From: a virus
Reading direction: 5' to 3' (one strand)
DNA length: 25,679 bases
Virus record (IMG/VR): IMGVR_UViG_3300043446_005743
Location: 1 to 25,679 of that record
Shown piece after piece: positions 3,310 to 25,679 of this stretch. The position numbers and the translations under genes were made by a program. The first letter of the stretch is position 1; each line of letters begins with the position of its first letter. The notes beneath the pieces are model-generated. The model was not told the origin of the DNA and did not search any database. It saw nothing but the letters and a program-made list of their open reading frames with translations.

Positions 3310-4893
3310 ATGAACACCATCAACAAAATCCAAAACTATCAGCTCGCAGCATACACAGGGGTTTTCGTACTCACCCACGAGGAGTCGAGGTTCATGCTTG
3401 AGCTAAACTCACTGGCTGAAAGTGACCCGACACTTACAGTTAGTGAATGGGATGCTCAGAACGGACTAGTTCACCGTTTTGGTGGAACCCCCATCAACCA
3501 TCCAGAAGAAACAAATACCACAGGGTTTTTGCTCGAGTATATTCAATCCTACAAACAAGGAAACACCCTTTTCATATTGAAGGACTTTCACCTTCACTTT
3601 GATAAAATCCTAAATATTCGTCTTTTGCGTAATGCCTGGAATAGATTGAAGCGCTTGGGCAATATGATTGTTTTTGTAGGACATAAATTCGCGGTGCCCG
3701 GCGAGCTTCAGAAGGAGATTCAATTGCTGGATTACAGTCTCCCAGATGTGGCGTCGTTAAGAGAAAGGCTTAATTTCATCCGAGACTCGGTTAACAAAAG
3801 CCGAGAGCAGGCAGGAAAGGACCTGCTGGAGATGGATGAGTATATCGCTGAAGCTGCCGTGGAGGCGGCCAGAGGCATGACTGGTCTCGAGGCTGAAAAC
3901 GCTTTCGCGTCAGCATGGACTTCTGTTAAAAAATATGACAGTAAATTTGTTGAAGCTGTTTTTCAGGAAAAAATTGCCCAGCTCAAGAAGAATGGTTTGC
4001 TTACCTACATGGAGCCTAATATCAGCTTTGATAATGTTGGAGGTATGGATGGTCTTAAAAAATGGCTGACTGCGCGTAAGAAAGCATACTCAAAAGAAGC
4101 TAGGAATTTTAATCTTCCTATGCCTAAGGGTATGTTGCTTGCTTCTGTTCCTGGTACAGGCAAAAGTCTGATATGCAAGGCTATTGCAAAAGAGTTTGAC
4201 TGTCCTCTATTCGCATTAGATATTGGCAGCATCTTCGGTTCGCTGGTGGGTAGCAGCGAGGCAAATATGCGGGAAGTTATTAAAACGATTGAAAGCATAG
4301 GCAAGTGCGTCATTCTAATTGACGAAATCGAGAAGAGCTTAAGCAACAGCGCGGTGAGCGGCCAGGGAGACAGCGGTGTAAGCAGCCGCATCTTTGGCAC
4401 GTTCCTGAGCTGGTTGAACGATAGAACCAATCCAGCCTTCATTGTGGCCACCACAAACAACCACACATTGCTGCCATCAGCCCTTATCCGCAAGGGTCGT
4501 TTTGATCAGTTGTTCTGGGTAGACCTACCGTCAGCCCAGGAGCGCAAGGAGATCTTCGAAGTTGTTATCAAGAAATATAATAGAGATCCTAAAAATTTCT
4601 CTATCAAGTCTCTTGTGAACGGGTCAGAAGACTTTACAGGTGCAGAAATTGAAGAGGTCTTCAAAGATGCGTTATACAAAGCCTTTGACGCTAACGAAGA
4701 AGTAAGTGATAGTCATGTACTGGAAGTATTATCGGAATTTATTCCTTTTGCTTCAAGTCATGAGGAAGATCTAAAAGTTATGCGCAAACAAGCGCAAGGT
4801 AAATTGGTTATGGTTAACAGCAAGGGAGATCCTATTGCTGACGTACAGAAAAACATGCGTAAACTCAGTATCGCAATCGGAAACGAAGAATAG
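3310..4893 (+). CDS. Ycf46-like AAA+ ATPase
   Basis: This 527-residue protein matches the Ycf46-type layout of cyanobacteria and plastids. An N-terminal region (about 12-150) contains an LTHEESR stretch and a WDAQNGLV segment like the family's 'EEER ... WD...G' pattern. The AAA+ core follows: Walker A SVPGTGKS at 279-286, FALDIGSIFGSLVGSSEAN from 301, Walker B VILIDEIE at 334-341, sensor-1 TTNN at 381-384, and IRKGRFDQ with R394/R397. There is no FtsH-type zinc protease HExxH domain. Known Ycf46 proteins are AAA ATPases with poorly defined roles. Downstream genes include the Ycf35 (DUF1257) and DUF2997 families, which accompany Ycf46 in other genomes to my knowledge, so this is probably a functional module. 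Its substrate is unknown. Confidence 0.87.
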   Translation: MNTINKIQNYQLAAYTGVFVLTHEESRFMLELNSLAESDPTLTVSEWDAQNGLVHRFGGTPINHPEETNTTGFLLEYIQSYKQGNTLFILKDFHLHFDKILNIRLLRNAWNRLKRLGNMIVFVGHKFAVPGELQKEIQLLDYSLPDVASLRERLNFIRDSVNKSREQAGKDLLEMDEYIAEAAVEAARGMTGLEAENAFASAWTSVKKYDSKFVEAVFQEKIAQLKKNGLLTYMEPNISFDNVGGMDGLKKWLTARKKAYSKEARNFNLPMPKGMLLASVPGTGKSLICKAIAKEFDCPLFALDIGSIFGSLVGSSEANMREVIKTIESIGKCVILIDEIEKSLSNSAVSGQGDSGVSSRIFGTFLSWLNDRTNPAFIVATTNNHTLLPSALIRKGRFDQLFWVDLPSAQERKEIFEVVIKKYNRDPKNFSIKSLVNGSEDFTGAEIEEVFKDALYKAFDANEEVSDSHVLEVLSEFIPFASSHEEDLKVMRKQAQGKLVMVNSKGDPIADVQKNMRKLSIAIGNEE

Positions 4894-4930: not shown

Positions 4931-5929
4931 ATGAACAACGAAAATCAAATAACTCAAGCTCTTCAGAAGTACTACGATAAAGTTTGGCAGGACGGAAAAT
5001 TGGTCAATGTACATATCGGTATGTGGGGCATGAGTCACAACCTTGAAGAATCAGACATCAAGCTGGATAACAAGCTTCCGGACGAGATCAAGCTGGGCAA
5101 GAAAATGCTGATCAAAACAGCAGTTTTCAAGAAATTTAAAAACATCGAGCAAAAGATTCGAAAATACCTGTACTCGAACTCTTTCGATTTTCCGTTGGTA
5201 CCTCAGGCGCACTTTGTACCAAAGTCTCGCTACATTGAAGTATACTCACAGCTCGTAAAGCTGCGGGAAGAATTCATGGCGATGGCTAATGAGTTCGTGG
5301 AAAAGTATGATGATTATAAGAAGGAGGCGCTGGAGTTTTACCAACAGCACAAGGACACGGTAAACGTGGATCTTGAGAAGTACTACCCCTCGGCACAACA
5401 TGTGCGAGAAAAGTTCTATATGAACATTATTTCGTTTGAAATCGCTCTGCCCACAGAGTTCAAGGAAGTTAATCTGCAAGATGAGATTGACCGCGAGATT
5501 ATCAATGATCAAGCCAGGCGTACAGCTTACGAGTCTTATAAGACCGAATACAGTAAGCAGCTCAGTACACATATGGCAACAATCAACGACTTCGTGGGAG
5601 ATGTAGTCAATACACTGCGCTCCAAGGTTATAGAACACTGCTCTGCCGCTCTGGCGAAGATCGGCAAAAAAGAAGTTGTTTCTGATGCAAGCATAAGGAC
5701 GCTGTTGAAGCATATCCAAGAGTTCAGAGAAATGAACTTTGTGGATGATAAAGTGGTGGAAAACAAGCTAAATGAAGTTGAGCGTCTTTTACAGAAAGAC
5801 CACGATTTCGAAACAGATAAAGACGCAATCGCTCTGTTGACGCAGCACCTCACCTCTGTGGTGAAAGAAGCGGAAAACATCAGTGATCTGGCAAACGTTT
5901 CGGGGGAGTACTTCAGGAAATTGGCATAA
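4931..5929 (+). CDS. DUF3150-like protein
   Basis: The protein has 332 residues, is largely alpha-helical in appearance and has no membrane segment. An N-terminal VNVHIGMWGMSHNL stretch, a long charged helical middle, a central FDFPLVPQAHFVP segment and a FYMNIISFEIALP stretch resemble phage proteins of the DUF3150 family, which often lie beside AAA+ ATPase genes. I recognise the family by pattern only. It starts at an ATG 37 bases after the Ycf46-like gene, with no Shine-Dalgarno sequence, and its stop overlaps the next start in TAATG. The position implies a partner or adaptor for the AAA+ ATPase, but no enzymatic motif is visible. Confidence 0.6.
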   Translation: MNNENQITQALQKYYDKVWQDGKLVNVHIGMWGMSHNLEESDIKLDNKLPDEIKLGKKMLIKTAVFKKFKNIEQKIRKYLYSNSFDFPLVPQAHFVPKSRYIEVYSQLVKLREEFMAMANEFVEKYDDYKKEALEFYQQHKDTVNVDLEKYYPSAQHVREKFYMNIISFEIALPTEFKEVNLQDEIDREIINDQARRTAYESYKTEYSKQLSTHMATINDFVGDVVNTLRSKVIEHCSAALAKIGKKEVVSDASIRTLLKHIQEFREMNFVDDKVVENKLNEVERLLQKDHDFETDKDAIALLTQHLTSVVKEAENISDLANVSGEYFRKLA

Positions 5930-6216
5930 TGTCCGAAGACCTACAAGACCCTCCAATATACGACACCCTGACGGTGAAGTTCAGAGGAGATAACCATGAA
6001 ATAGTTCTACCCTATTGCGAGGTAGCTAACGGGGATATTAAAACAATCGGTACAAATTGTATTTATATATCCGTAACAGAGAAAGGCTTTGCTGATGAAG
6101 TTAAGATGACCTTTGAGGAATTCTTAAACACAATTGAAAAAGCCTTTGACACCAAAGAAATCACAAAGCTGTCAGTACAAGCTGCTGATAGTTACGACAC
6201 AGTAAAAATACTATGA
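5929..6216 (+). CDS. Hypothetical protein in Ycf46/Ycf35 cluster
   Basis: This is a 95-residue acidic protein that looks beta-rich at its N-terminus (YDTLTVKFRGDNHEIVL) and helical later (FEEFLNTIEKAF). I recognise no family. Translation is coupled on both sides: its ATG overlaps the upstream stop in TAATG, and its TGA overlaps the next ATG in ATGA. That tight placement between the DUF3150-like and Ycf35-like genes argues that it is a genuine part of the same module. Confidence 0.75.
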   Translation: MSEDLQDPPIYDTLTVKFRGDNHEIVLPYCEVANGDIKTIGTNCIYISVTEKGFADEVKMTFEEFLNTIEKAFDTKEITKLSVQAADSYDTVKIL

Positions 6217-6599
6217 GTCACGCGGTTAATATCACCACACAGTTCAAGAGCATAGAAAATTTGCTCAAACAGTTCAAGTCATTGGGCTGGCAAATTGAGC
6301 ACGATCAAAAAATTAAAACATACCCCAGCGATCCCAGGAGGGAAGAGGTGCACAAGTATGTGGCCAAAAACCCTAAAGGAGGCTATGACGTAGGTATAGA
6401 TGTGGATAACGAAGGTAACGCATACTTTGTGTGCGACTTCTTTGATTCTTCGATCCAGGACCAGCTAGGCAAAAACCTACAGAAAATCAAACAGGGTTAC
6501 GCCTTGTCTGAAATCAAAAAGCGTCTGCGTGAAGAGGACATGGAATACACTGTGTCCACTTTACCTTCAGGAGAAATGGTAGTTATCGCTGAGAAATAA
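6213..6599 (+). CDS. Ycf35-like DUF1257 protein
   Basis: The 128-residue protein has the DUF1257/Ycf35 plan. It opens with MSH and a TQFKSIENLLKQFKSLGW helix, then a KNPKGGYDVGIDVDNEGNAY strand pair, FVCDFF, then IKQGYALSEIKKRLREE, and a final strand pair TVSTLPSGEMVVIAEK. The family is known from cyanobacterial and plastid genomes and scattered bacteria and phages, and has no firmly established biochemical role. Its presence beside a Ycf46-like ATPase and a DUF2997 protein makes the assignment stronger. The start is fixed by the ATGA overlap with the preceding gene. Confidence 0.85.
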   Translation: MSHAVNITTQFKSIENLLKQFKSLGWQIEHDQKIKTYPSDPRREEVHKYVAKNPKGGYDVGIDVDNEGNAYFVCDFFDSSIQDQLGKNLQKIKQGYALSEIKKRLREEDMEYTVSTLPSGEMVVIAEK

Positions 6600-6602
6600 T
6601 AT

Positions 6603-6803
6603 ATGTCTAAAAAAATAGTATTTAAAATTAATCAGAACGGCGATATATTGATAGATAAGGTTGAGGGGTATGGTAGCTCATGCCTCGAAGCCACAAAAGA
6701 TATCGAGAAGGCTCTAGGTAAAGTTAATGAGTCGTCTAGAAAAATGACACACGAATATGAGGAGCCAGTCAGCTGTGATAACTCTCAACGTGTGAGTCAA
6801 TGA
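6603..6803 (+). CDS. DUF2997-like small protein
   Basis: The 66-residue protein matches the DUF2997 pattern: a first strand KKIVFKINQNGDILID, a glycine turn, then the signature SCLEATKDIEKALGKV (roughly residues 26-41) and a polar tail with EYEEP. Members are small, often lie next to DUF1257 genes, and have no known activity. Here the gene follows the DUF1257 gene by 3 bases and overlaps the next by ATGA. The tail beyond residue 55 is longer and more polar than I would expect for the family. Confidence 0.78.
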   Translation: MSKKIVFKINQNGDILIDKVEGYGSSCLEATKDIEKALGKVNESSRKMTHEYEEPVSCDNSQRVSQ

Positions 6804-7048
6804 GGACTGTAATCTACATCGATAAAAATGGAGATGTTTCCGGTCTAGCTGATGATGTTGTGGATAAACTTGACCTTGGAGTGAAGAGCGTCAACAGGGT
6901 ATCTAATGTTGAGTTCGATCACTCCTCCCAGCAATGGGTAGCCACAGCGTTAGACGGCGAGGTTATCGCCCAAGATGCTGTGAGAAGTAGGGTGATAGAT
7001 ATGGAAAGAAACCACCTGAACAGCCTTATAGAGAAAAGCTTCTCTTAA
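6800..7048 (+). CDS. Small hypothetical protein ending the Ycf46 module
   Basis: This 82-residue protein has a short strand MRTVIYIDKNGDVSGL, then a segment of the type RVSNVEFDHSSQQWVATALDGEVIA and a helix RSRVIDMERNHLNSLIE. The 'xVEFD...WxA...G' pattern is seen in small phage proteins but I cannot name a family. It starts within the ATGA overlap with the DUF2997-like gene and ends 11 bases before a strong hairpin, so it is probably the last gene of this transcription unit. Confidence 0.75.
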   Translation: MRTVIYIDKNGDVSGLADDVVDKLDLGVKSVNRVSNVEFDHSSQQWVATALDGEVIAQDAVRSRVIDMERNHLNSLIEKSFS

Positions 7049-11242: not shown

Positions 11243-12171
11243 ATATTATGGATAGGCGTCACGAAAATCCAAAAAAAGGTGTTTGCTGTATCGTGTTAAC
11301 GCTGGAGGAACAGGACCCGGCGTTAAAGTTCAAAACCATAACCTACAAGAGCTTTGAGAGTCTTCCTAGGGAGGAAGCGCTACAAAAGCTTGGAGATATA
11401 ATATCACACAATCTCAAGGTTACGCAAGAAGCTATACGATATTGTGGGAACAATCACTTGAACTACCGACTCTCTTCAAGTATTTTCCCGCTACTAACAT
11501 ACGATAAGGCAGAAGTTTCTCTGGAAGATCTGCCTAACGCGGCTCAAATAGATAATGAGATTGAGCTCCTTCGCGATACTGTTAAGGTATCTGGAGTGAG
11601 ATTGAGCACCCACCCTGACCAGTTTAACGTGCTTGCAAGCGATAACGAAGAAACCGTACTGCGCACAATACGTGAGCTAGATTTTTACGGTAAATTCATG
11701 ACACGCATTGGTTGCCCTTTGTCTCATGAGTCTCCTATTAATCTACACATGGGAAGTGCACAGAATCAGGATTGGTGGAATATATCTGATAAGTTTAACA
11801 GCAGCTTCTTAAAGCTGTCGAATGATGTGCGTTCTAGGTTAGTGCTAGAGAACGACGATAAACCTCGCTGCTGGAGCGTGAAGAAACTGCTGATGTATCT
11901 GCACCTCCCGTTAAACATACCGATCACGTTTGACTATTTGCATCACGCATGTCATCCTGATAAATTATCCGAAAAAGAAGCATTTGATATTGCCTATCAT
12001 ACATGGGGCAGGGTAAAACCACTGTTTCACTACAGCGAAGCGGCCCCAGGGCAGAATAACCCAAGAAAGCACGCAGATTACTCCACAGCCGAACCGGACA
12101 CATACGGAAAAGCTGTGGATCTAGATTACGAGTTTAAAATGAAGGAAAAGTCATGGAGCTTAAAAAAATAA
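11239..12171 (+). CDS. uvsE: UV-damage endonuclease UvdE/UvsE
   Basis: The 310-residue protein matches the UvdE/UvsE family, TIM-barrel metal-dependent endonucleases that nick DNA immediately 5' of UV photoproducts and start excision repair without UvrABC. Visible family motifs are YRLSSSIFPLL at about 76-86, STHPDQFNVL at 123-132, NLHMG at 168-172, LVLENDD at 201-207 and TFDYLHHACHP at 230-240. These hold the His, Glu and Asp residues expected as metal ligands. The length is usual for the family. The start is set by the ATGA overlap with the previous gene, although an in-frame ATG lies three codons later. It overlaps the SbcC-like gene by 19 bases, placing lesion nicking and end processing in one operon. 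Confidence 0.9.
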   Translation: MNIMDRRHENPKKGVCCIVLTLEEQDPALKFKTITYKSFESLPREEALQKLGDIISHNLKVTQEAIRYCGNNHLNYRLSSSIFPLLTYDKAEVSLEDLPNAAQIDNEIELLRDTVKVSGVRLSTHPDQFNVLASDNEETVLRTIRELDFYGKFMTRIGCPLSHESPINLHMGSAQNQDWWNISDKFNSSFLKLSNDVRSRLVLENDDKPRCWSVKKLLMYLHLPLNIPITFDYLHHACHPDKLSEKEAFDIAYHTWGRVKPLFHYSEAAPGQNNPRKHADYSTAEPDTYGKAVDLDYEFKMKEKSWSLKK

Positions 12172-14210
12172 TACTCAAAAACTTCAGGTCCCATAAGAGC
12201 CTGAGTCTTGAATTCAACGCAGGCATTACCGGTATCGTTGGAGGCAACGGTACCGGTAAGAGCAGTATTGTCGAGGCCATCATTTTCCTGTTTACAGGGG
12301 AGGGATACGGCAAAACTAAAACAGATATGCTTACCGTGGGACAGTCCAGCGGTTATGTAATTGGACACATCCTTATAGACGGTAAAGAAGCCATACTGGA
12401 GAGACATATAGATGCAGCCAAGGTTAATCTGAAGTATGACGATAAAGTCTACAAGAAGAGCAGTGAAGTTAATGAGCTTTGGGCTCAGTTATTTCAGATC
12501 GACAAGCATCTTGTGCAAAATGTAATTGTATCCAATCAGGGAGAAATATCCCTGCTTTTTAACGGAGACAATAGCACAAGAGAAAAGCTGTTCCAGAAGA
12601 TATTCATGGTACCTAATACCAATAAGATTAGAGACACTGTATGGAACAGCTATATTAAAATGGCTCCTCCAGAGTATGCGGTTAAAGATAGCTTGGAACT
12701 AAAGAGTCGGAAGCAGGAGATTGATGAATTGCTGGCCGACATAGAAAAAGCGCTACAAACCCAGGAGATGGACAAGTTACAAAATAGCTATAACTCCCTG
12801 GTAGCTAGAAAGTCGTTTATTGAGAAGGTCATTGCAGATGAGTTATTATACGGCACCCTCAAAAGTAAGCTCAATAGCCTGACCGATGAGCTTGGTAAGG
12901 TTAAAACCGAAAAAGCTACAGCGCAAGAAAGTTTAAACGCGGCAAACTATGAGGAAGCCTTGAAGTCTGTTGCGGCTATGGATATGGCTGCAACACAATT
13001 GCAGCAGAAGATTAAAACCCTGGCCGAGCTGGATGCGTTGGTACGCCCCAGCAGCAATGTATCCAAAGATGATGTGGATAGCCTTGCCTCAGAGATGGCC
13101 GAGCTCACAGGGCAGATCAACCTAAAGAAGCAGAAAATAGCCGAGCTGGGTGAAAAGTTGCAAACCTACGAACAAAAAGGTCTCGATGCTGAAACAACAT
13201 CCTGCCCCACATGCGGTGCGGAATTAAAAGACATCACCTCGATAATTAGACATATCGAGACCGAAAGAGACCAGGTGATATATGAGGCAACTCTAATCAA
13301 AACCAGTCTTGATAACGCTAAAGCTCAAAAAGAAGTAAAGCAGAAAGAATATTTGGTATTTGAAAGCTATCAGAAAAAATCAGATGAGCTTAGTTCTAAA
13401 TTATCTGCGTATGCAGATGTGAGGTACGACGCTCAACAGCATGAAGCCTTCAGGGAGCAAATCAAAAAGCATAAGCTCAACGAAGCTCTTCTATCAGGAC
13501 TAGCTAGCGCTGAAGCGCAACTACATCAAGATATCAACCAATTACAGCTTAAGTTGGCCTCCAGTACAGGTTATGATAACACAGATCCTGAAGGCGCTTC
13601 TGCCGAGTTATCAAAAATTGAGGTAGAGCTGCAGGGTGTTAACCAGCGTCTAGCTACCGTTAAGCAGCTGGAGATTGATATAGCCGTCAAGAGACAAGAA
13701 GCCTGCTCTCTTTTGGAAGAGATCAAACAAAACGAAGAGCACATAGCTAAAAATAAAAAAACATCAGATTATAAATCTATTCTTACAGAAGTATACGATA
13801 TATTTCATCCTACAAAGTTTCCTAGAGCGTTAATCCAAACCTATTCATCTACTGTGACAGAGTACATGAATGACGCGTTGACTGCGTTCGACTTCCCCTA
13901 CACGGCTAAAGTAAATGAGACTTTCGGTATTGACGTATACAATGACGAAGGCCTATTACTCCCGTCTGTATCGGGTGGACAACAGGTCATGATCGGATTC
14001 AGTCTTAGGCTTGCTTTACATAACATGTTTGTGGGAGCATTTCCATTCATGGTAATCGACGAGGGCAGTTATGGGTTAAACGCCGAGAATAGCAAAAAAT
14101 ACTTCGAAATCATCAGAAGCTTGAACAAGCACAGCAAGTTCAAGCAGGTGATAGTCATTGACCACCACCCTGAACTGAGCGAGTATGTAGACTACACAGT
14201 ACAATTATGA
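12153..14210 (+). CDS. SbcC/Rad50-like ATPase (gp46-type)
   Basis: This 685-residue SMC-like ATPase is the likely partner of the SbcD-like nuclease. Walker A GGNGTGKSS is at residues 30-38. Two coiled-coil arms flank a zinc hook C351-P-T-C354, through which Rad50 family dimers join. The ABC signature SGGQQ begins at 607, Walker B MVIDEG is at about 633-638, and the H-loop region DHH is at 670-672. The arms are short, comparable with phage gp46 rather than bacterial SbcC. A moderately good AAGGA lies 6-7 bases before the ATG, one of the few Shine-Dalgarno-like sites here, and may support re-initiation in the overlap with uvsE. It acts with SbcD in end resection and recombination-dependent replication. 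Confidence 0.93.
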   Translation: MELKKIILKNFRSHKSLSLEFNAGITGIVGGNGTGKSSIVEAIIFLFTGEGYGKTKTDMLTVGQSSGYVIGHILIDGKEAILERHIDAAKVNLKYDDKVYKKSSEVNELWAQLFQIDKHLVQNVIVSNQGEISLLFNGDNSTREKLFQKIFMVPNTNKIRDTVWNSYIKMAPPEYAVKDSLELKSRKQEIDELLADIEKALQTQEMDKLQNSYNSLVARKSFIEKVIADELLYGTLKSKLNSLTDELGKVKTEKATAQESLNAANYEEALKSVAAMDMAATQLQQKIKTLAELDALVRPSSNVSKDDVDSLASEMAELTGQINLKKQKIAELGEKLQTYEQKGLDAETTSCPTCGAELKDITSIIRHIETERDQVIYEATLIKTSLDNAKAQKEVKQKEYLVFESYQKKSDELSSKLSAYADVRYDAQQHEAFREQIKKHKLNEALLSGLASAEAQLHQDINQLQLKLASSTGYDNTDPEGASAELSKIEVELQGVNQRLATVKQLEIDIAVKRQEACSLLEEIKQNEEHIAKNKKTSDYKSILTEVYDIFHPTKFPRALIQTYSSTVTEYMNDALTAFDFPYTAKVNETFGIDVYNDEGLLLPSVSGGQQVMIGFSLRLALHNMFVGAFPFMVIDEGSYGLNAENSKKYFEIIRSLNKHSKFKQVIVIDHHPELSEYVDYTVQL

Positions 14211-17599: not shown

Positions 17600-19011
17600 G
17601 TGAGCTTTACAACGACTCAGACTATCTGGAGCTGACTATCAAATGTTTGTTCAGAGATAGATTGGTACTACAAAAAGCCGCAGATTTGCAGGTGAGACCT
17701 GAAGACTTTGGCACCATCAACATATACAATGCTTTCGTTGCTGCAGCATTAGAGATAGGAAAAACCTCATCAGGACCTATTAGTGACCAGCTATGCCTGG
17801 CCTATTTGAAAACAAAGCTAAAAGAATATAATATTCTGCAGGCAGAAATGTCTAGCGTGATGACCTTCTGGGAGTATATATATAACGATGAGCCTATCAC
17901 AGCAGACTATGTCCTGCAGCATTTCGCAGATTTTATAAAATTCAGAAGATATCAATTACTTAAGATAGGTAGTCACGTTACTCCGGAATCTCTGGTGCAG
18001 GAAGCCGGTCGGTTGGTGGCAGACATCAACTTAAAAAACTCCTCAGATTCTGTAAGGATGTTTGACCCTTTTGAGCAGCTTGTGCTGATCGAATACAAGG
18101 AAAGTTTGATGACAGGCTTCCCGGGTGTAGATGCTTCTACAAAAGGACTAAACTATCAGGAGCTCGGCTTGATACTAGGGCATAGCGGTTCAGGCAAAAC
18201 AGCCATGGCTGTGTACTCCGCCTTGAAAAACGCTCAAGCAGGTAAAAAAGTTTTATACATCTCTTTAGAGGAGCCTGCCGAAAACATCTGTTCGCGTTTA
18301 TACAGCAATATATTCAGAATACCCTACACTGACCTACACAAAGGTTCAGTATTGATGCAGCAGGATTTAAGAAATGCTTTTGAAAGTATGGATGCACGTG
18401 ATAAGTGCTCGTTGAGAAATTTCAAGGTACATGATTTGAGATATGTGTCGCCTGTGAGCTGCAAGTACCTCAAGACATACCTAGACCAGCTGTACAGCGA
18501 TACAGGCTATCATCCTGATTTGATTTATATTGATCAGCTGGACTACCTGACCACATCAGATAAATATGATGCGGAATGGTTAAAATACTCTAAAGCTGCT
18601 TTTGAAGTGGAAGATTTATCCAACCATCTGATAGGTGGACAGCATAAGTTTAGCATCTGGTTATTGCATCAGGCGGCAGGTAAGATGACCAGAAAATATA
18701 CCAATGCTGAAATCAGCGGCTTCAAGGGTGTAATCAAGCCTGTGGATATTGCGCTAGCCATAGGCAGAGATTCTCCTCAAGATACCACTGTAAGCATCTT
18801 CTCCTTAAAGTCTCGACATGCTAAAAACTGTCAGTTTGACTATTTTGCAGAGCTCGAGTTTATGAACTTCCAGCAGCTGGATAAAGCTGCTGAAGCAAGA
18901 GCAGACGAAGAGAAGAAAGATAGATCCCAGAGAACAGGCGGAAATTTCAAAAACATACCTTCAAGAGCTCCATTATTACCTGCAGCAGGAACAGGATTTT
19001 TAGCATCATGA
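17596..19011 (+). CDS. DnaB-like replicative helicase
   Basis: This 471-residue protein has the DnaB layout: a helical N-terminal domain (about 1-150) and a RecA-fold motor. The motor contains GLILGHSGSGKTA (Walker A 195-202), VLYISLEEP just after, a Walker B segment LIYIDQLDYL near 309-318 and ISGFKGVIKPVDIALAI toward the end, with a final SLKSRHAK basic patch. Members form hexamers that unwind DNA 5' to 3' at the fork. The C-terminal 45 residues are Glu/Lys-rich and then Pro/Ala-rich, probably a flexible tail. The start and stop both lie in ATGA overlaps. Confidence 0.9.
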   Translation: MSELYNDSDYLELTIKCLFRDRLVLQKAADLQVRPEDFGTINIYNAFVAAALEIGKTSSGPISDQLCLAYLKTKLKEYNILQAEMSSVMTFWEYIYNDEPITADYVLQHFADFIKFRRYQLLKIGSHVTPESLVQEAGRLVADINLKNSSDSVRMFDPFEQLVLIEYKESLMTGFPGVDASTKGLNYQELGLILGHSGSGKTAMAVYSALKNAQAGKKVLYISLEEPAENICSRLYSNIFRIPYTDLHKGSVLMQQDLRNAFESMDARDKCSLRNFKVHDLRYVSPVSCKYLKTYLDQLYSDTGYHPDLIYIDQLDYLTTSDKYDAEWLKYSKAAFEVEDLSNHLIGGQHKFSIWLLHQAAGKMTRKYTNAEISGFKGVIKPVDIALAIGRDSPQDTTVSIFSLKSRHAKNCQFDYFAELEFMNFQQLDKAAEARADEEKKDRSQRTGGNFKNIPSRAPLLPAAGTGFLAS

Positions 19012-21719
19012 GTGAAATAATTAAGAAACAAAAAATAGAAGTTAAACCGAATTTTGTTGAGGGGTCTCAGCCTGAGCTGATGATTGTGTTTTCGCATCCA
19101 GGTAAAGACGACCTAGAGGCTGGATGCTTCGGCGAAGCAGGTATGGCTACAGAGGTATTATCCGCCCTCAGTGGGGCAGGTATTCCTCTGGAGAAGGTAT
19201 ACTTCACAGGTATGGTCAGACACGGTATAGGTAATAAACCTAAACCCTCAGCAGAAGATATTGAAGAGTGGTCAAAGAAGCTGGATGAAGATATCGAGAC
19301 AGTAAAGCCCAGACTGATCATGCCGCTAGGGGCGGAGGTATTCAAGCGGATAATGAAATCCAACACCAAGATGGGAGATTATTTAGGGGAAATCGTGGAT
19401 ACTGCCTACGGTAAAGTTTTAGCCAACTATGCCCCCGGCATGATCGTGGTGATGGACCCTACCAAACGTCCTGAGTTTCGAGAAAATTTTGTGCTCGCAA
19501 AAAGATTTCTCGACAATAAGTTAAATTATAAAAATTATAAGTATGTTGTTATTGAAGACCCTCAAGACAACATAGCCATGCTCAATGCGTATATTAGCCG
19601 TGGAGAATTTCAGATAGGTTATGATGCAGAGTGGTTCGGTGAAAAATTTACGGACGATGAAGTGATGTATGAATTTCAGTACAGTTGTGAAAAGGATTTT
19701 GCGGTCGTATTGAATATCTCTAAAGATGGTATTACAGAGAATAGAGAGCTTCTGGACACCATGAAGATCATGCTAGAACATCCCAACGTAAAGCGTATGG
19801 GATGGAATATCCGTGCTGACGATCTGAGACTAACTCATAGAGGATTCAAGCTGGCTGATGAGACGCTAGCTTTCGACGGTATGAAAGCAGTGGCGTTTTT
19901 TGATTCTAGGCTAAGTAAAGGTCTTGAGACGGGAATCAAGTACTTCACTGAATACCCTCCATATTACACTGCGCTAAATAAAAAAATTAAAGAACATAAA
20001 CTTGGTAAAGCTGAACTAGCCAAGCTGAAGTTTTTGGAGCCTGATATATACTACCATTATTGCGCGGGAGACGCTGTAAGCCACAGAGAAGCCTGCTTGA
20101 ACATGAAGGCATCTTTTCCTGAAAATTTGAAAAGTTGCTATTATGATATCTATCTGCCACTGACCAGCTACTTCACAGACATGGAGTTTACTGGTATCGG
20201 TATAGATAAGAAGGTATTGCAAGATCTCACCGACAAGTATCTGCAAAAATATAACGAGTTAAAAGCAGAATTGATAGGCTATCTAAAAGATGAGTTTGGT
20301 GTGGAAGATTTTAATCCAAATTCTTCTCCGCAAAAAAAGTCACTTCTTTTTGAGACGCTTAAAGTGACACCAGCCTACTACACCAAATCAGGCAAATCTC
20401 CCAAGTCCAAAGTTTGGTACGATAGACAGAAACCTCAGACTCAAAAATTATACGAGCCTAGCACCAACGGTAAAAGTTTAAGTACAATTAAATTTCAGCT
20501 AGAAGAGCAGCTCGAGATATATTCAGATAACCCAGACTTAATGAGAGTGCATAAGGCGATTACTCTTTTGCTGAACCTGAATCGTGTGGGAGTATTTGCC
20601 ACGAAGTTTCTATCCAAAAAAGGCATAACTTCAGACGCGGACAGCCCTGACAACGAAATTGATGATGATGAAGAACCTCTCAAACAGAGCTATTGGGCAG
20701 CAATCTGTAAGGACGGTAGAATACATGCCAGCTTTTTTGAGTGCTTGAAAAACTTTAGGGCAAGCAGCAGCCCTAATGTGCAAAACCCAGCCTCAAAGGT
20801 TTTGGCATATATTCCGGATATCTTTGTACCTGGTTACAGTAAATTTAGCGACGAAGATCAAAAGAAGCATAAGCATTTGCTACCAGATAACATCAGAAAT
20901 ATTTTTTATACCGGTAAATCTGATTTCTATTGGGCTGAGCTGGATGTGGCTGGAGCAGACTTGGCTATCATGGCCTTTCTCTCTGGTGACGCACAGTTTA
21001 TCCACGACATCAGAGCAGGAAACTTTCATCAGACCAAGATGAGGGAATACTTTAACGATGGTACGTTAACCAAAAAAGATGTTTCAAAATATGTAATTGC
21101 CAAAAGCATCACGTTCCGTGTTTCCTATACCGCAGGGCTCGAATTCGCTGCTGTACCTATCCAGGCAGACATTTATGCTGAAAATGGGTTGCATGTAGGG
21201 GAAGAGACACTAAAGTATGCGCTAGAAACTTGGAAGAGATATGACAAGTATATGCTGTTCAGAGATAGATGTGTACAAGAAGTACAGAACCACAAAAGAA
21301 TAACCAACGCCAGAGGACTGATATTGAACTATGAGGAAACAGATAACTTTGGAATACTTGCAGGCTGGATGAATGAAAGTCTTGCTTTTCCGGTTGCAAG
21401 TGAGTTAGCTTGGTTTATGTGGGAATGTTCGATAAACCTAAAAACCCTTCTTAAAAATGAAGGGTTATGGATGAAATATGTGCTGCCTGTGAATACTGTG
21501 CATGATGCAGGCTATTGGGCAGTACACAAAGATCTGGTGAATGACGGCAGCATACAAGAGATACTGAAGTATGTATTTTGTCACTACACCAAGTTGGCCA
21601 CCGGAGACAACGTGGGATGCGAGTTATCTATTACTGACAGATGGAAAGGTAAAGAAAAAGTCTTCGAGAAAGAAACAGCTTGGAATTTTGGCAAAAATCA
21701 ATGGGAATGGAAACATTAA
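19008..21719 (+). CDS. DNA polymerase I with N-terminal UDG-like domain
   Basis: This 903-residue replicative polymerase has three parts. Residues about 20-170 resemble a family 4/5-type uracil-DNA glycosylase (HPGKDDLEAGCFGEAG, VYFTGMV with KPKPSAEDIEEW, IMPLGAEVF), an arrangement known from SPO1-type phage polymerases. Residues about 200-365 are a DEDDy 3'-5' proofreading exonuclease: D206-x-E208, N267-x3-D271 and Y351-x3-D355. The A-family polymerase follows. Motif A is LDVAGADLA with metal-binding D646, and D651 sits where Glu is usual. Motif B is KYVIAKSITFRVSY with K699, F703 and Y707, and Y695 sits where Arg is usual. Motif C is HDA at 832-834, where HDE is usual. The two metal-binding Asp residues are kept, so activity is likely. 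Confidence 0.93.
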   Translation: MSEIIKKQKIEVKPNFVEGSQPELMIVFSHPGKDDLEAGCFGEAGMATEVLSALSGAGIPLEKVYFTGMVRHGIGNKPKPSAEDIEEWSKKLDEDIETVKPRLIMPLGAEVFKRIMKSNTKMGDYLGEIVDTAYGKVLANYAPGMIVVMDPTKRPEFRENFVLAKRFLDNKLNYKNYKYVVIEDPQDNIAMLNAYISRGEFQIGYDAEWFGEKFTDDEVMYEFQYSCEKDFAVVLNISKDGITENRELLDTMKIMLEHPNVKRMGWNIRADDLRLTHRGFKLADETLAFDGMKAVAFFDSRLSKGLETGIKYFTEYPPYYTALNKKIKEHKLGKAELAKLKFLEPDIYYHYCAGDAVSHREACLNMKASFPENLKSCYYDIYLPLTSYFTDMEFTGIGIDKKVLQDLTDKYLQKYNELKAELIGYLKDEFGVEDFNPNSSPQKKSLLFETLKVTPAYYTKSGKSPKSKVWYDRQKPQTQKLYEPSTNGKSLSTIKFQLEEQLEIYSDNPDLMRVHKAITLLLNLNRVGVFATKFLSKKGITSDADSPDNEIDDDEEPLKQSYWAAICKDGRIHASFFECLKNFRASSSPNVQNPASKVLAYIPDIFVPGYSKFSDEDQKKHKHLLPDNIRNIFYTGKSDFYWAELDVAGADLAIMAFLSGDAQFIHDIRAGNFHQTKMREYFNDGTLTKKDVSKYVIAKSITFRVSYTAGLEFAAVPIQADIYAENGLHVGEETLKYALETWKRYDKYMLFRDRCVQEVQNHKRITNARGLILNYEETDNFGILAGWMNESLAFPVASELAWFMWECSINLKTLLKNEGLWMKYVLPVNTVHDAGYWAVHKDLVNDGSIQEILKYVFCHYTKLATGDNVGCELSITDRWKGKEKVFEKETAWNFGKNQWEWKH

Positions 21720-22003: not shown

Positions 22004-22342
22004 ATGCAAACAAACAAAACAACTAGTATGACTACAACAAACAAAACCACCCCCACCACCAAAACCACCAAGTGCACCGCACCCGTCAGATACAAATTCA
22101 CCAAAATCAAGCAGCCCACAGTAGTGAGCCGTAAAGTGTGTGGAGTATCCACGCGCGGAATTAAGCTTGAAAATAATTTGTATTATTTTGTGAGCGATCT
22201 TGTAGAAGGTTTTGGTCGTGGGTTCCTGAAATCCTTGGAATCTTCGATCATTAAAATGCGGATTAAAGATAAGAATAACAGCCAAACACGCAGACTTGTT
22301 AAAGCAACAGATCTGCCCAAGAAAATGTCCGTTCGTAGCTAG
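22004..22342 (+). CDS. Hypothetical protein with Thr/Lys-rich N-terminus
   Basis: The 112-residue protein starts with a low-complexity Thr/Asn/Lys stretch (residues about 2-25). A likely folded part follows (RYKFTKIKQPTVVSRKVCGV, then YYFVSDLVEGFGRGFLKSL) with a basic tail. An in-frame ATG at 22028 is an alternative start. The N-terminal bias partly reflects A/C-rich DNA. No family is recognised, and it is probably cytoplasmic and basic. Confidence 0.55.
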   Translation: MQTNKTTSMTTTNKTTPTTKTTKCTAPVRYKFTKIKQPTVVSRKVCGVSTRGIKLENNLYYFVSDLVEGFGRGFLKSLESSIIKMRIKDKNNSQTRRLVKATDLPKKMSVRS

Positions 22343-22421: not shown

Positions 22422-22673
22422 ATGTACTCCATCCAAATCGCAGACAAAACCGGCCACACCACAGTAGCAGACCTGGACGTTGATCAGGCTGTAGCCCAAA
22501 TCGTCCAGAACGCCCAGAGTAACGCTCGCTGGGTGTTCATTAACGGCGAGAAATTCGAGTTCCAAGGAACCGACTTCAGCACAGCACACAACACCCAGAA
22601 ACTTCGCTCAAAACTTGAGCAGGTTGGAGAGCAAGCTGCAATCCTGCTGACGGGTGTACTCGTCGGCGGATAA
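22422..22673 (+). CDS. Candidate ubiquitin-like protein with C-terminal Gly-Gly
   Basis: This 83-residue protein has a ubiquitin-like layout. Strand 1 is MYSIQIAD (1-8), then a TGH turn and strand 2 TTVADLDV (about 13-20). A helix follows at about 20-33 (DQAVAQIVQNAQ), then RWVFINGEKFEF (37-47), which parallels ubiquitin's RLIFAGKQLED hairpin, and a last strand AAILLTGVLV. The protein ends exactly in GG (82-83), the residues an E1 would adenylate and conjugate. Since nothing follows the Gly-Gly, no maturation cut would be needed. E1 and JAB genes lie 2-3 kb downstream. No cysteine is present. The fold is inferred from pattern, not alignment scores. A small hydrophobic-tailed membrane protein is the main alternative. 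Confidence 0.55.
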   Translation: MYSIQIADKTGHTTVADLDVDQAVAQIVQNAQSNARWVFINGEKFEFQGTDFSTAHNTQKLRSKLEQVGEQAAILLTGVLVGG

Positions 22674-22695: not shown

Positions 22696-22726
22696 AGCCC
22701 CGGAGAGAAATCTCCGGGGCTTTTTT
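22696..22726 (+). terminator. Strong Rho-independent terminator
   Basis: AGCCCCGGAGA (22696-22706) pairs perfectly with TCTCCGGGGCT (22711-22721) around a GAAA tetraloop, followed by a run of T residues to 22726. It lies 23 bases after the candidate ubiquitin-like gene and before the 712-residue gene, so most transcription of the small gene should stop here. Confidence 0.93.
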
Positions 22727-22756: not shown

Positions 22757-24895
22757 ATGTATTTAGAATTCGTAAAAGCCAAAGCTTTCTCGAAAATTTT
22801 CGAGAAAATCAGTAAGCATGTAATTAGCACGGACGTGTCCATAGACACGTCTAATTGCTATGACACCACAGTCCAAAAGTATGTATCAAGAACATCTTTT
22901 AGGTACATAAATCCTATCTTCCCGGATATAAACAGTATGGTCGGGTTTAGTAAGTTCTCACCTATTCCCAAAAAGTTTAAAGTTGCGGACACCGCCGTTA
23001 ATGATGAGATTCAAGGCATACTTAGTTCGGCGCTATCGTTTGGAAGTAGTGCTACTGTGCAAAAATTGAGCGCATCGACAGCTAAAGGCCACAGAACAAT
23101 ACGATTGATTACAAACCGCACTCCAGAGTCGCTTATACCATGGATTGTGGAAAAAGCTCCCGTAGAGTATACATCAGGAGATTATACATACAGGCTCATT
23201 ACAGGAGAAAACAAAAAATCATACGAGCCTGAAATTAAACTGATAGCTGAGAGCAATGAACCTATATACGATTATCTGGATAGAGGTTATTTGCTTATGT
23301 GTCTAACCGAAAACGTTCCAAACCTTAGCGAGGCAAAAGAAGATTTTTTGGAAAGATTAGATGCTCATAAATGGGTTGTCTCTAACGTGTATGACCTCAA
23401 TACTGCACATATTTTCATGATGTGCAGGCTGCAGCCCTGTCTTACCGATCTATTGCAGGACGGCTGCTTCATTAATAGAGATGAAGCTGAGATGTTAAGA
23501 TTAAAAATGTTCAAAAAGCTTACACCTGAAGCTAAGGTAAACTATACTAAATTCTCTAGCGTATTGGATGAGGATTACAAACAAAACTCCACCATGGTGG
23601 TTGTGAATAAACTTATCAATCGTGAGATACCAAAAACAACCATCCGCGACATAGCGTTCTCCACGATCCATGCAAAGTATGAAAATGTCAGTATTCAAGC
23701 CGACAATCTGCTTGATGTATTGGAAAAAAAGTTAGATTTTAACGGGGAATTTGATATTTATACCGTGGTTGAGCTATACGCCCTGCATGTAAAAGGTAAC
23801 GCTGACACCGCAGCATGGACTGTAGATGAAATAAACAGAATCAACGCAGGAAATACTGAGCTTAAAAATAAAAAGATAGCAGATTTAAAGATTAACGATA
23901 TCGATATATCCGTAGACCTGAATTACTCAGGCCAGAGGTTTATCAACGATATACGTATCAATAAGGACGAGGTAGCCAAAGCACTACAACGGGCTTCCTG
24001 CTATCGCTCAGCGGAAGAGTATAATCTCTTCTTGAAAAGTATCAGCAGAATGAGTATACGTTGGCATGATATTATTGCCAACGGGCTGCAGGTTAAAATA
24101 CAAGATAATATCAGTCGGGAGGATTTACGTAATCCGCTACCTTCGATAAACGCTCCAGCCTTGAAATTCTTTGTGGATAATCAGGGTTATATCAATCTTC
24201 AAGTGACGCAAGAAAGAGGAGTTAGGGTAAATCTCAGCGCTTTGATAAAGAAGGTTGAAGTGATTAACAAAAAGACTGACGGAAGAGGTGTAAGAGATCT
24301 TTTAGGTCATTTTGTGTATAGAACCAACACCTGGTCATCCAGGAGGTTGATCGAAGCTCTGATTGAAACCACCACATTCAAGGAAAAAGTTAGGCAGGAA
24401 GATGGAACGATCAAAGAGGTGGAAAGAGTACTGATCAACGAGGACGACGTTACAAAGCTGCTTGCTGTTGTGGGGGCGCAGAGTAAGGCAAAAATAGAAA
24501 GATCTAAGAAATTCCTAGAAACTGCTGTACAGCTTACCAACGCGGAATTGATTCACTTCCGTGGTGAATCAGCGTACAAAGTGCAGGGAGCGTTACGCAC
24601 ATACGCAGTTGTGATCAGTACAGCCAAGGTCTATGACTACGATACAAAACAATATCGCTGCATTGTTAACGGTAGTCACTATAAGGGTGCGGGTTACGAT
24701 GATGTGGCAAGCAGGTTGCTAGCCTTGAAGAATGACTCCGTGATGGTAGATAGTATTCGCACACTTTCAGGCGCTGCCCAGCCTGGAGCCGAAAACGCAC
24801 ACCACTATATTCCTGAACGTGAGCACAATTCGGAAGATGTGAGTGAAAGCATTAAGAAAGCCTTCGAAGCTAAATTAAATGAATCCTTACAGTAA
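22757..24895 (+). CDS. Large unrecognised protein in Ubl/JAB/E1 cluster
   Basis: The 712-residue protein has no motif I can assign. It looks soluble with mixed helix and strand, and no signal peptide or membrane segment is evident. Cysteines are few and scattered (NCYD, MCLTE, MCRLQPC, GCFIN, SCYRS, RCIVN), so an E2-like or E3-like catalytic Cys cannot be picked by eye. The first 35 codons contain two strong inverted repeats. The 3' end overlaps the JAB gene by 17 bases, so it is probably translated with the JAB and E1 genes. It could be a substrate, scaffold or novel ligase of the conjugation set, or an unrelated phage virion or host-takeover protein; nothing seen decides this. Confidence 0.85.
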   Translation: MYLEFVKAKAFSKIFEKISKHVISTDVSIDTSNCYDTTVQKYVSRTSFRYINPIFPDINSMVGFSKFSPIPKKFKVADTAVNDEIQGILSSALSFGSSATVQKLSASTAKGHRTIRLITNRTPESLIPWIVEKAPVEYTSGDYTYRLITGENKKSYEPEIKLIAESNEPIYDYLDRGYLLMCLTENVPNLSEAKEDFLERLDAHKWVVSNVYDLNTAHIFMMCRLQPCLTDLLQDGCFINRDEAEMLRLKMFKKLTPEAKVNYTKFSSVLDEDYKQNSTMVVVNKLINREIPKTTIRDIAFSTIHAKYENVSIQADNLLDVLEKKLDFNGEFDIYTVVELYALHVKGNADTAAWTVDEINRINAGNTELKNKKIADLKINDIDISVDLNYSGQRFINDIRINKDEVAKALQRASCYRSAEEYNLFLKSISRMSIRWHDIIANGLQVKIQDNISREDLRNPLPSINAPALKFFVDNQGYINLQVTQERGVRVNLSALIKKVEVINKKTDGRGVRDLLGHFVYRTNTWSSRRLIEALIETTTFKEKVRQEDGTIKEVERVLINEDDVTKLLAVVGAQSKAKIERSKKFLETAVQLTNAELIHFRGESAYKVQGALRTYAVVISTAKVYDYDTKQYRCIVNGSHYKGAGYDDVASRLLALKNDSVMVDSIRTLSGAAQPGAENAHHYIPEREHNSEDVSESIKKAFEAKLNESLQ
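22786..22807. repeat. Perfect 22-base palindrome
   Basis: TTTCTCGAAAATTTTCGAGAAA is identical to its own reverse complement, centred between 22796 and 22797. It lies in codons 10-17 of the 712-residue gene (encoding FSKIFEK). It could be a binding site for a dimeric regulator or a cruciform/hairpin in the mRNA. No second copy was seen by eye. Confidence 0.85.
22822..22856 (+). repeat. Bulged inverted repeat in coding sequence
   Basis: GACGTGTC (22832-22839) pairs with GACACGTC (22844-22851) around the loop CATA. AATTA (22822-22826) pairs with TAATT (22852-22856) outside a five-base bulge. Together with the palindrome 14 bases upstream this forms two stable hairpins near the translation start of the 712-residue gene. 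Confidence 0.7.
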
Positions 24896-25319
24896 TAAGA
24901 ACTTGATATCCTTTTTCAAGGCGATTATGCAAGCTTCCGAGGAATGCAAAAATCGGAGTGAAGAGGAAGGCGGGGTGATACTGAATAAAGATGATTATTT
25001 TGAATTTATAAAGATAAAAAACGCACATGCTGACACATCTGTGGCCTTTGGTTTGTACGAAACAGACTTATCAGAGCTGTCGATGCGTGTGTTTCCTAAA
25101 ATAGCTGAAGGTTGGAAAATGTATGCCAGTTTTCATACACATCCAACATTCAGTCCGGTTCCAAGCAGTATAGATATGACAAAATTATTTCAAGGGTTTA
25201 AATACAACATTATATTTTCGCCTATAAAAGACATGTTTTCATATTCCTTCTGGAACAATGAAGAATCATTAATCAGCTACATTCCAAAATCAACAATAAC
25301 TCAACTAGTAAACAAATGA
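24879..25319 (+). CDS. JAB/JAMM-family metalloprotease
   Basis: The 146-residue single-domain protein carries the complete JAMM zinc motif. Glutamates are in EEEGGVIL (28-30), then H86-T-H88 with exactly seven residues to S96 and D99 (SSID). Family members hydrolyse isopeptide or peptide bonds after ubiquitin-like C-termini, and the two His and the Asp bind zinc. There is no NlpC/P60 domain, unlike the lambda K-type tail-assembly proteases. It starts 17 bases inside the 712-residue gene and overlaps the E1 gene in ATGA. Because the candidate Ubl already ends in Gly-Gly, removal of Ubl from targets is a more natural role here than precursor processing. That last step is inference. Confidence 0.9.
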   Translation: MNPYSNKNLISFFKAIMQASEECKNRSEEEGGVILNKDDYFEFIKIKNAHADTSVAFGLYETDLSELSMRVFPKIAEGWKMYASFHTHPTFSPVPSSIDMTKLFQGFKYNIIFSPIKDMFSYSFWNNEESLISYIPKSTITQLVNK

Positions 25320-25679
25320 CATTTAAAAAAATCGCCATTGCAGGTGCCGGAGGTATCGGTTCGAATTTACTGTCGATCCTCTTTGACTACGGATTCAATC
25401 GTAAGCAGTTTAACTACTACGATTGTACTGTAGATATATACGATGATGATACGGTAGATCTCAAAAACCTACTGCATCAGAACTTTAAGATTGATGATGT
25501 GGGTAAGTATAAAGTTGAGGTGATGGAGGACAAGTATGTTGTTAATGGTCACAAACGTAGACTAACAAAGGAAGATTTTCCGAATTACGATCTGATCTTC
25601 AGCTGCGTGGATAGCATGCCATTCAGGAAAGATTTGTATGAATATAGTTGGAACGAAGGTAAAGGTAAATTATTCTGGA
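25316..25679 (+). CDS. E1/ThiF/MoeB-family adenylating enzyme, 3'-truncated
   Basis: The gene starts at the ATG at 25316 in an ATGA overlap with the JAB gene and runs off the window after about 121 codons. The nucleotide-binding loop GAGGIG is at 10-15. The family signature appears as DDDTVDLKNLLHQNF from residue 43, comparable to MoeB-type D-x-D-TV...NL-R-Q, with His where Arg is usual. GKYKV at 63-67 carries the conserved Lys, and a YDLIFSCVDSMPFR stretch ends with the expected Asp near 99. These enzymes adenylate the C-terminal Gly of a ubiquitin-like protein. The catalytic Cys, any zinc site and any fused domains lie beyond the window. Confidence 0.92.
   Translation, partial: MTFKKIAIAGAGGIGSNLLSILFDYGFNRKQFNYYDCTVDIYDDDTVDLKNLLHQNFKIDDVGKYKVEVMEDKYVVNGHKRRLTKEDFPNYDLIFSCVDSMPFRKDLYEYSWNEGKGKLFW

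Follow-up and report, generated by a model that had tools for sequence, protein, structure and literature searches.

The virus record IMGVR_UViG_3300043446_005743 of IMG/VR, whose entire 25,679 bases form the window analyzed here, encodes on its plus strand a small ubiquitin-like protein (Ubl) that ends in a glycine pair, followed by a 712-residue protein (P712), a JAMM/MPN+ (JAB) metallopeptidase and an E1/ThiF-like adenylating enzyme. This gene set and its motifs are conserved among related viruses, the glycine pair is invariant with variable tails behind it, and a terminator-like hairpin sets the Ubl gene apart from the enzyme genes. The Ubl is likely (probability approximately 0.72) to be a virus-borne ubiquitin-like modifier, with the E1 of the cassette activating it and the JAB of the cassette trimming it or taking it off again; its conjugation is inferred.

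The Ubl gene and its predicted fold

The Ubl gene (positions 22422..22673, plus strand) was confirmed as an open reading frame with ATG start, 83 codons, no cysteine and the C-terminus LTGVLVGG directly before the stop codon; the mature C-terminus Gly82-Gly83 corresponds to the codons at 22665-22670. The preliminary description, made from the sequence alone, had reported an 83-residue, cysteine-free protein with a hydrophobic LTGVLVGG tail and a Gly-Gly end; reading frame, length, absence of cysteine and terminal sequence all held. The assignment as a Ubl rests on this frame and its translation, on the invariance of the glycine pair in its homologues (see below) and on a predicted beta-grasp model. 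Pairwise dN/dS ratios between relatives were well below 0.15 (contigs L002 and L005: dS 1.02, dN 0.10); the protein is therefore under purifying selection. Sequence similarity to ubiquitin, NEDD8 or SUMO was undetectable, and comparison with Pfam, PHROG and NCBIfam yielded only sub-threshold chance matches, which for 6 of 13 homologues include a weak Pfam match to toxin PA domain 3 (E 0.006 or worse); PADLOC gave none. In a tblastn search of isolated phages neither the Ubl nor P712 was found.

The AlphaFold2 model of the Ubl, calculated with ten homologues as input, reached a pLDDT of 83 and predicted strands at residues 2-8 and 11-18, a helix at 20-33, strands at 35-40 and 43-45, a second helix at 55-68, a strand at 73-78 and a loose GG tail. 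The proposal that the protein follows ubiquitin segment by segment thus held in the model, except for the longer second helix; the fold-comparison matches were weak. The best PDB chains in Foldseek were NEDD8, a Trypanosoma Ubl and ubiquitin at an E-value of about 0.06 (0.058), non-significant when taken alone; the top rows of VIA-align were mostly Ubls (the Ddi1 UBL with the maximum Z of 5.2, ISG15, Fubi, MoaD and SUMO), the sulphur carrier TtuB was also among the fold matches, and the leading named matches in BFVD included viral ubiquitin-like proteins, again weakly. A beta-grasp fold is therefore predicted as likely on the basis of topology and gene context, there being no strong score to support it.

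The invariant glycine pair and its variable tails

Relatives of the window virus (hereafter group 1) were collected by scanning IMG/VR with Ubl, JAB, P712 and E1, which retrieved contigs of up to 204 kb. The glycine pair was invariant in 22 of 22 distinct group-1 Ubl homologues and never lost; the other positions invariant among these 22 sequences were G11, H12, W37, G42, F47, N57, L61, L65, L76 and G78. Reading frames ending in GG are uncommon here (2 of 239 frames of 50-400 residues in eight of these viral loci).

Behind the glycine pair the group-1 Ubls carry zero to nine residues of variable sequence (TK, RK, LK, HK, EI, C, TKA, QAVLFDIE, LLQELLSLE and others). The statement of the preliminary description that no residues follow GG is true for the window Ubl and two homologues (contigs L009 and L079) and fails for most relatives, which have one to nine extra residues; the suggestion that the protein would be ready for adenylation without processing accordingly describes a local exception in the window virus and not a general rule. 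Homologues extending past GG had been named as an observation that would refute the ubiquitin-like reading, and formally this case is met. Since, however, the tails are short, variable and always placed after GG, and a JAB gene is adjacent, the outcome supports that reading: a variable short tail after GG is, by analogy, the precursor pattern of ubiquitin and SUMO (pro-ubiquitin), the removal of the tail being inferred. Further support for a ubiquitin-like modifier came from the E1/ThiF-like enzyme and the JAMM/JAB peptidase encoded downstream behind P712.

Gene order and expression layout of the group-1 cassette

The order Ubl - P712 - JAB - E1 was kept wherever the contig extends far enough, with P712 and JAB separated by a single additional gene in some cases; contigs or stored stretches that are cut at one end show a partial set (e.g. 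L046, L047 and L075). The cassette lies among replication genes, with primase, helicase and DNA polymerase upstream and, in one relative, RecA downstream; replication-stage targets are therefore the first guess. The DnaB-type helicase, family-A polymerase and RecA of group 1 are as in bacterial phages.

Directly 3' of the Ubl gene, a hairpin resembling an intrinsic terminator (positions 22696..22721, plus strand) comprises 11 pairs followed by a T run. A strong hairpin was present in the Ubl-P712 gap of all 13 genomes checked, with hairpin sequences that differ between genomes; on the other side of it, the P712, JAB and E1 genes abut or overlap, to within 17 bases at most, in the eight genomes whose spacing was measured. 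Inferred from the sequence and without transcript data, this layout suggests that the Ubl would be made in excess and the enzymes in smaller amounts.

Several neighbouring genes were recorded as separate observations. A 112-residue protein is encoded upstream of the Ubl (window positions 22004-22342), with homologues at this place in most relatives, some of them of 260-270 residues. In contig L015 the gene that separates P712 from JAB (12103-12732) encodes a 209-residue protein with a weak RNase_H_2 (3'-5' exonuclease-like) match, and gaps of similar size occur in L012 and L016. The DNA polymerase I-type protein of the window (19008-21719) contains an N-terminal uracil-DNA-glycosylase-like domain in the same chain. 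In the regions 5929-7048 and 3310-4893, small genes match DUF1257 (below the cut-off) and DUF2997 (PF11211, above the cut-off), with an AAA ATPase of CDC48/FtsH-type domain nearby; such a trio resembles the ycf35-DUF2997-ycf46 set of cyanobacteria and plastids.

The JAB peptidase and the E1-like enzyme

The JAB gene (positions 24879..25319, plus strand) encodes 146 residues that match Pfam Prok-JAB (PF14464) with an E-value of 1e-7 and 32.3 bits (curated cut-off 25); the match was recovered in 12 of 12 homologues. The motif residues Glu28/29, His86-x-His88-Pro, Ser96 and Asp99 (motif at 25134-25175) were all invariant in 12 homologues. As a PHROG tail family is also among the matches of the JAB (E 1.3e-5), and pairs of Ubl and JAB are found in lambdoid tail clusters (PMC1779556), the cassette could alternatively be a tail-assembly module like lambda I/K, in which the Ubl would be processed by the JAB during virion assembly. 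This alternative is regarded as very unlikely: an E1-like enzyme is present on every contig long enough to show it, the JAB is restricted to its 146 residues without an NlpC/P60 part, and the cassette is flanked by genes for DNA polymerase and RecA rather than by tail genes.

The E1/ThiF-like gene (positions 25316..25679, plus strand) is cut by the contig end, so that only the N-terminal 121 residues are available, with the loop GAGGIGS at 25343-25363. A full-length homologue scored 66 bits against Pfam ThiF (PF00899; cut-off 28). The GxGGxGS Rossmann loop, an acidic pair and a lysine were conserved, and a conserved cysteine near the C-terminal end, aligned with a cysteine of the PRTRC and crAss-phage ThiF proteins, was present in full-length relatives; the window copy stops before this residue. 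In the NLxRQ motif of ThiF and MoeB the arginine is replaced by histidine in the group-1 enzymes (NLLHQ), and it is also absent from the E1s of the second virus group (see below) and of crAss-phages. Given the role that this motif is known to have in MoeB and ThiF, adenylation cannot be taken for granted. In the E1 tree each virus group formed one clade and the crAss-like E1s a separate one; the joint placement of the two virus groups remained unresolved and was affected by long branches. As an observation apart, the E1 gene of contig L015 (13157-14931) is interrupted, after 'DDDTV' and before 'DVKNLLHQ', by approximately 1.2 kb encoding a LAGLIDADG endonuclease, and a mobile intron or intein is therefore present in the active-site region of this E1.

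The same parts, Ubl, E1 and JAB, would also be used by a ThiS/MoaD-type sulphur carrier system, in which the E1 adenylates the GG end, a thiocarboxylate is loaded and the JAB trims, the product being a modified small molecule or nucleic acid. In favor of it, the E1 has ThiF-family similarity, MoaD and TtuB were among the fold matches of the Ubl, and bacterial Ubl-JAB-E1 sets with sulphur genes exist (PMC1779556). Against it, the ThiS/MoaD models of Pfam, NCBIfam and PHROG gave no match to the Ubl, no rhodanese or sulphur-transfer gene was noticed among the neighbours of the cassette, and the constant extra partner is P712 with its invariant cysteine, not a sulphur enzyme. On balance a sulphur carrier is considered unlikely; together with the arginine replacement in the NLLHQ motif of the E1 it constitutes the chief uncertainty of the modifier reading.

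A third alternative is counter-defence, i.e. that the cassette, as a decoy or by deconjugation, mainly blocks or reverses a host Ubl defence (Bil, CBASS Cap2/Cap3). Hosts do conjugate Ubls against phages (e.g. PMC10097602), and JAB and E1 weakly matched PADLOC defence models. These matches, however, were weak and of the generic JAB and E1-E2 kind, far from the identity of a defence family (NCBIfam CBASS Cap3: 12.7 bits versus a cut-off of 200), the activating enzyme is kept together with the peptidase, which goes beyond the needs of a deconjugase, and to our knowledge there is no host link. Such a function thus appears very improbable as the main one, and the modifier reading is retained in the following.

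A second virus group with the same cassette

The E1 search also reached two contigs, L081 and L082, whose E1 neighbourhood contains a 66-residue reading frame ending in GG plus one residue; a scan with their E1 retrieved about 40 loci (group 2). The group-2 cassette consists of Ubl, E1, JAB and a shorter relative of P712. The Ubls have about 65-75 residues and end in AIVGG or similar, followed by one to nine variable residues, with the GG present in 21 of 21 distinct sequences. Profile-profile comparison of the group-1 and group-2 Ubls by hhalign gave a probability of 96% (E 1.8e-9, score 52; at most 19 in 100 column-shuffled controls). Run over whole records, the group-2 Ubl profile produced one match in each of 11 group-2 records and one apiece in two group-1 records of 198 and 204 kb (E 2.5e-4 and 4.4e-4), the latter being the group-1 Ubl genes. 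Among 14 representative Ubls from both groups only I6, G11, H12, I27, G42, L76, G82 and G83 were invariant; the proposed check, whether the terminal GG is the most conserved position, thus found the pair among only eight invariant positions across the two virus groups.

The group-2 records contain a split family-B DNA polymerase; a chaperonin gene was identified in L082, as was a weak TFIIB-type zinc ribbon. Split PolB, chaperonin and TFIIB-type features have been reported for magroviruses of marine archaea (PMC10768690), and group 2 is inferred to be archaeal and magrovirus-like, to which the split PolB fits. A search for MCM gave weak matches in two records and a search for PCNA none, so that the archaeal assignment is not confirmed by these markers.

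P712 and its relatives

P712 (positions 22757..24895, plus strand; 712 residues) belongs to no known family: no significant match was obtained in Pfam, PHROG, PDB sequences or fold searches, nor in a search of genome contigs. Its structural model over all 712 residues was of modest quality (pLDDT 75, pTM 0.49). No E2 fold was seen among the leading fold matches, which does not exclude one; likewise, the proteins of the cassette gave no match to Prok-E2 Pfam models, and no canonical E2 was found, with a strongly diverged E2 fold not excluded. Across 23 P712 sequences 93 positions were invariant, including Cys415 and Cys635, the latter (codon 24659-24661) within a C-terminal motif.

In group 2, a protein of 390-490 residues is encoded between Ubl and E1 and matches P712 in two collinear segments (E 1e-4 and 4e-4). 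In the C-terminal segment (E 1.1e-5, score 38 versus at most 23 in shuffles) the invariant group-2 cysteine of 'CIDN..GDQ..AR....ND' aligns with Cys635 in 'CIVN..YDD.A.RLLALKND'. One invariant cysteine common to both groups, in a protein encoded beside Ubl and E1, suggests by inference a Ubl-carrying site; it is possible, and no more than that, that Cys635 is the carrier or transfer site of the Ubl. With a long helix, several strands, Cys635 and a further helix in succession (GPICIDN as the group-2 motif), the C-terminal part of P712 makes an E2-like region an attractive possibility, although the E2 fold itself is an inference.

Proposed pathway and its significance

According to the modifier reading, the Ubl would be expressed from a separate, terminated transcript and would probably outnumber its enzymes. 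Where a tail exists, the JAB would trim it to GG, the tail being already absent in the window virus. The E1-like enzyme would then adenylate the C-terminal glycine with ATP and may load the Ubl onto the conserved cysteine near its own C-terminal end, from where it would be passed on, perhaps via the invariant cysteine of P712, and attached to viral or host target proteins; the JAB could take it off again. Adenylation, the role of P712, covalent attachment and the targets are all inferences. Speaking against this reading are the weak fold matches, the failure to find a canonical E2, the unrecognizable fold of P712 and the replaced arginine of the E1.

A bolder reading would be that an old, self-contained Ubl conjugation pathway is common to large bacterial phages and to archaeal magrovirus-like viruses. 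In it, transfer would be performed by a new non-E2 (or unrecognizably divergent E2) cysteine family, P712 and its 400-residue relatives, and the modifier would have a terminated transcription unit to itself and act while the virus replicates; at present the balance tips slightly against so far-reaching a proposal. Prokaryotic Ubl systems have mostly been known from cells and plasmids, and several of them act against phages. In the present case the putative modifier, the enzyme that would activate it and the peptidase that would trim it are encoded by viruses, as a block conserved in both a bacterial and an archaeal-virus-like lineage. Should the cassette be active, it would amount to a ubiquitin-like tagging pathway that operates in prokaryotes but is encoded by viruses. 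One would then have to ask which proteins viruses tag, and the P712 family would come to light as a possible new type of transfer enzyme; protein tagging as in our own cells may be an old viral tool. No description of the cassette was found in the open literature, subscription papers being outside our reach, and one jumbo-phage review and two magrovirus papers do not mention it.

Comparison with known systems

Among cellular and plasmid systems, the PRTRC plasmid operon, with the order E - C (Ubl) - F - B (E2) - A (JAB) - ThiF, parallels the viral order Ubl - P712 - JAB - E1. Both have a small Ubl with C-terminal glycine(s), and the best NCBIfam model of the viral E1 is PRTRC_ThiF (TIGR03736; E 2.5e-11), with 43-50 bits far under the cut-off of 144.75. 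An operon type consisting of Ubl, helical protein, E2-like protein, JAB and E1 was described in 2006 (PMC1779556; 'type 6d' of Iyer, Burroughs and Aravind), and it is our own reading that the PRTRC operon is this type. PRTRC C commonly ends in a single G, in contrast to the GG of the viral Ubl. As candidates for PRTRC counterparts, the viral Ubl gave no Pfam or NCBIfam match to PRTRC C/Prok_Ub (PF14454) and aligned to PRTRC C by hhalign only at chance level; profile comparisons of P712 with PRTRC F, and of P712 and its group-2 relative with PRTRC B (Prok-E2_D), were at chance as well. No ParB was found beside the viral cassette. Since the tests for PRTRC C, F and B and the ThiF cut-off were not met, the viral cassette is not filed under PRTRC.

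In crAss-like phages and Flavobacterium phage FpV4, ThiF adjoins a JAB gene together with a protein that looks Ubl-like at its N-terminus and one of 370-420 residues; the Ubl-like part is, however, joined to a longer chain, and the partner is not recognizably P712. These four proteins are encoded together in L026 (2855-6570), L027 (2532-6543), L083 and L089, from crAss-like and related phages, where the ThiF is annotated as thiamine biosynthesis. In the cultured Salmonella phage Arash (L090, 1519-4539) consecutive genes encode a weakly Prok-E2_D-like protein, a JAB and a ThiF, and 'structural protein' is the annotation given to the E2-like protein and to the ThiF; this phage might serve as a tractable model for viral Ubl systems. 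The sets of crAss-like phages, FpV4 and Arash are regarded as related to the viral cassette but distinct. Lambda I (Ubl) and K (JAB plus NlpC) likewise combine a phage Ubl with a JAB; the lambda pair, however, lacks an E1, lies in the tail cluster and possesses the NlpC domain (PMC1779556).

The archaeal SAMP system, with the HvJAMM1 desampylase and UbaA, has a GG-ending Ubl with a single E1 and a JAMM, and its conjugation proceeds without a known E2. The viral cassette resembles it in the GG-ending Ubl, the single E1 and the JAMM; it differs in that its genes are clustered with P712 and that JAB and E1 score far under the desampylase and UbaA cut-offs (17 bits versus 130 and 19 bits versus 450, respectively). 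Compared with ubiquitin, NEDD8 and SUMO and the JAMM deubiquitinases, the viral side has a long second helix, no recognized canonical E2 or E3 and an E1 of single ThiF-domain size; in common with them it has the predicted beta-grasp order, the C-terminal GG, the short variable tail, and E1-like and JAMM partners.
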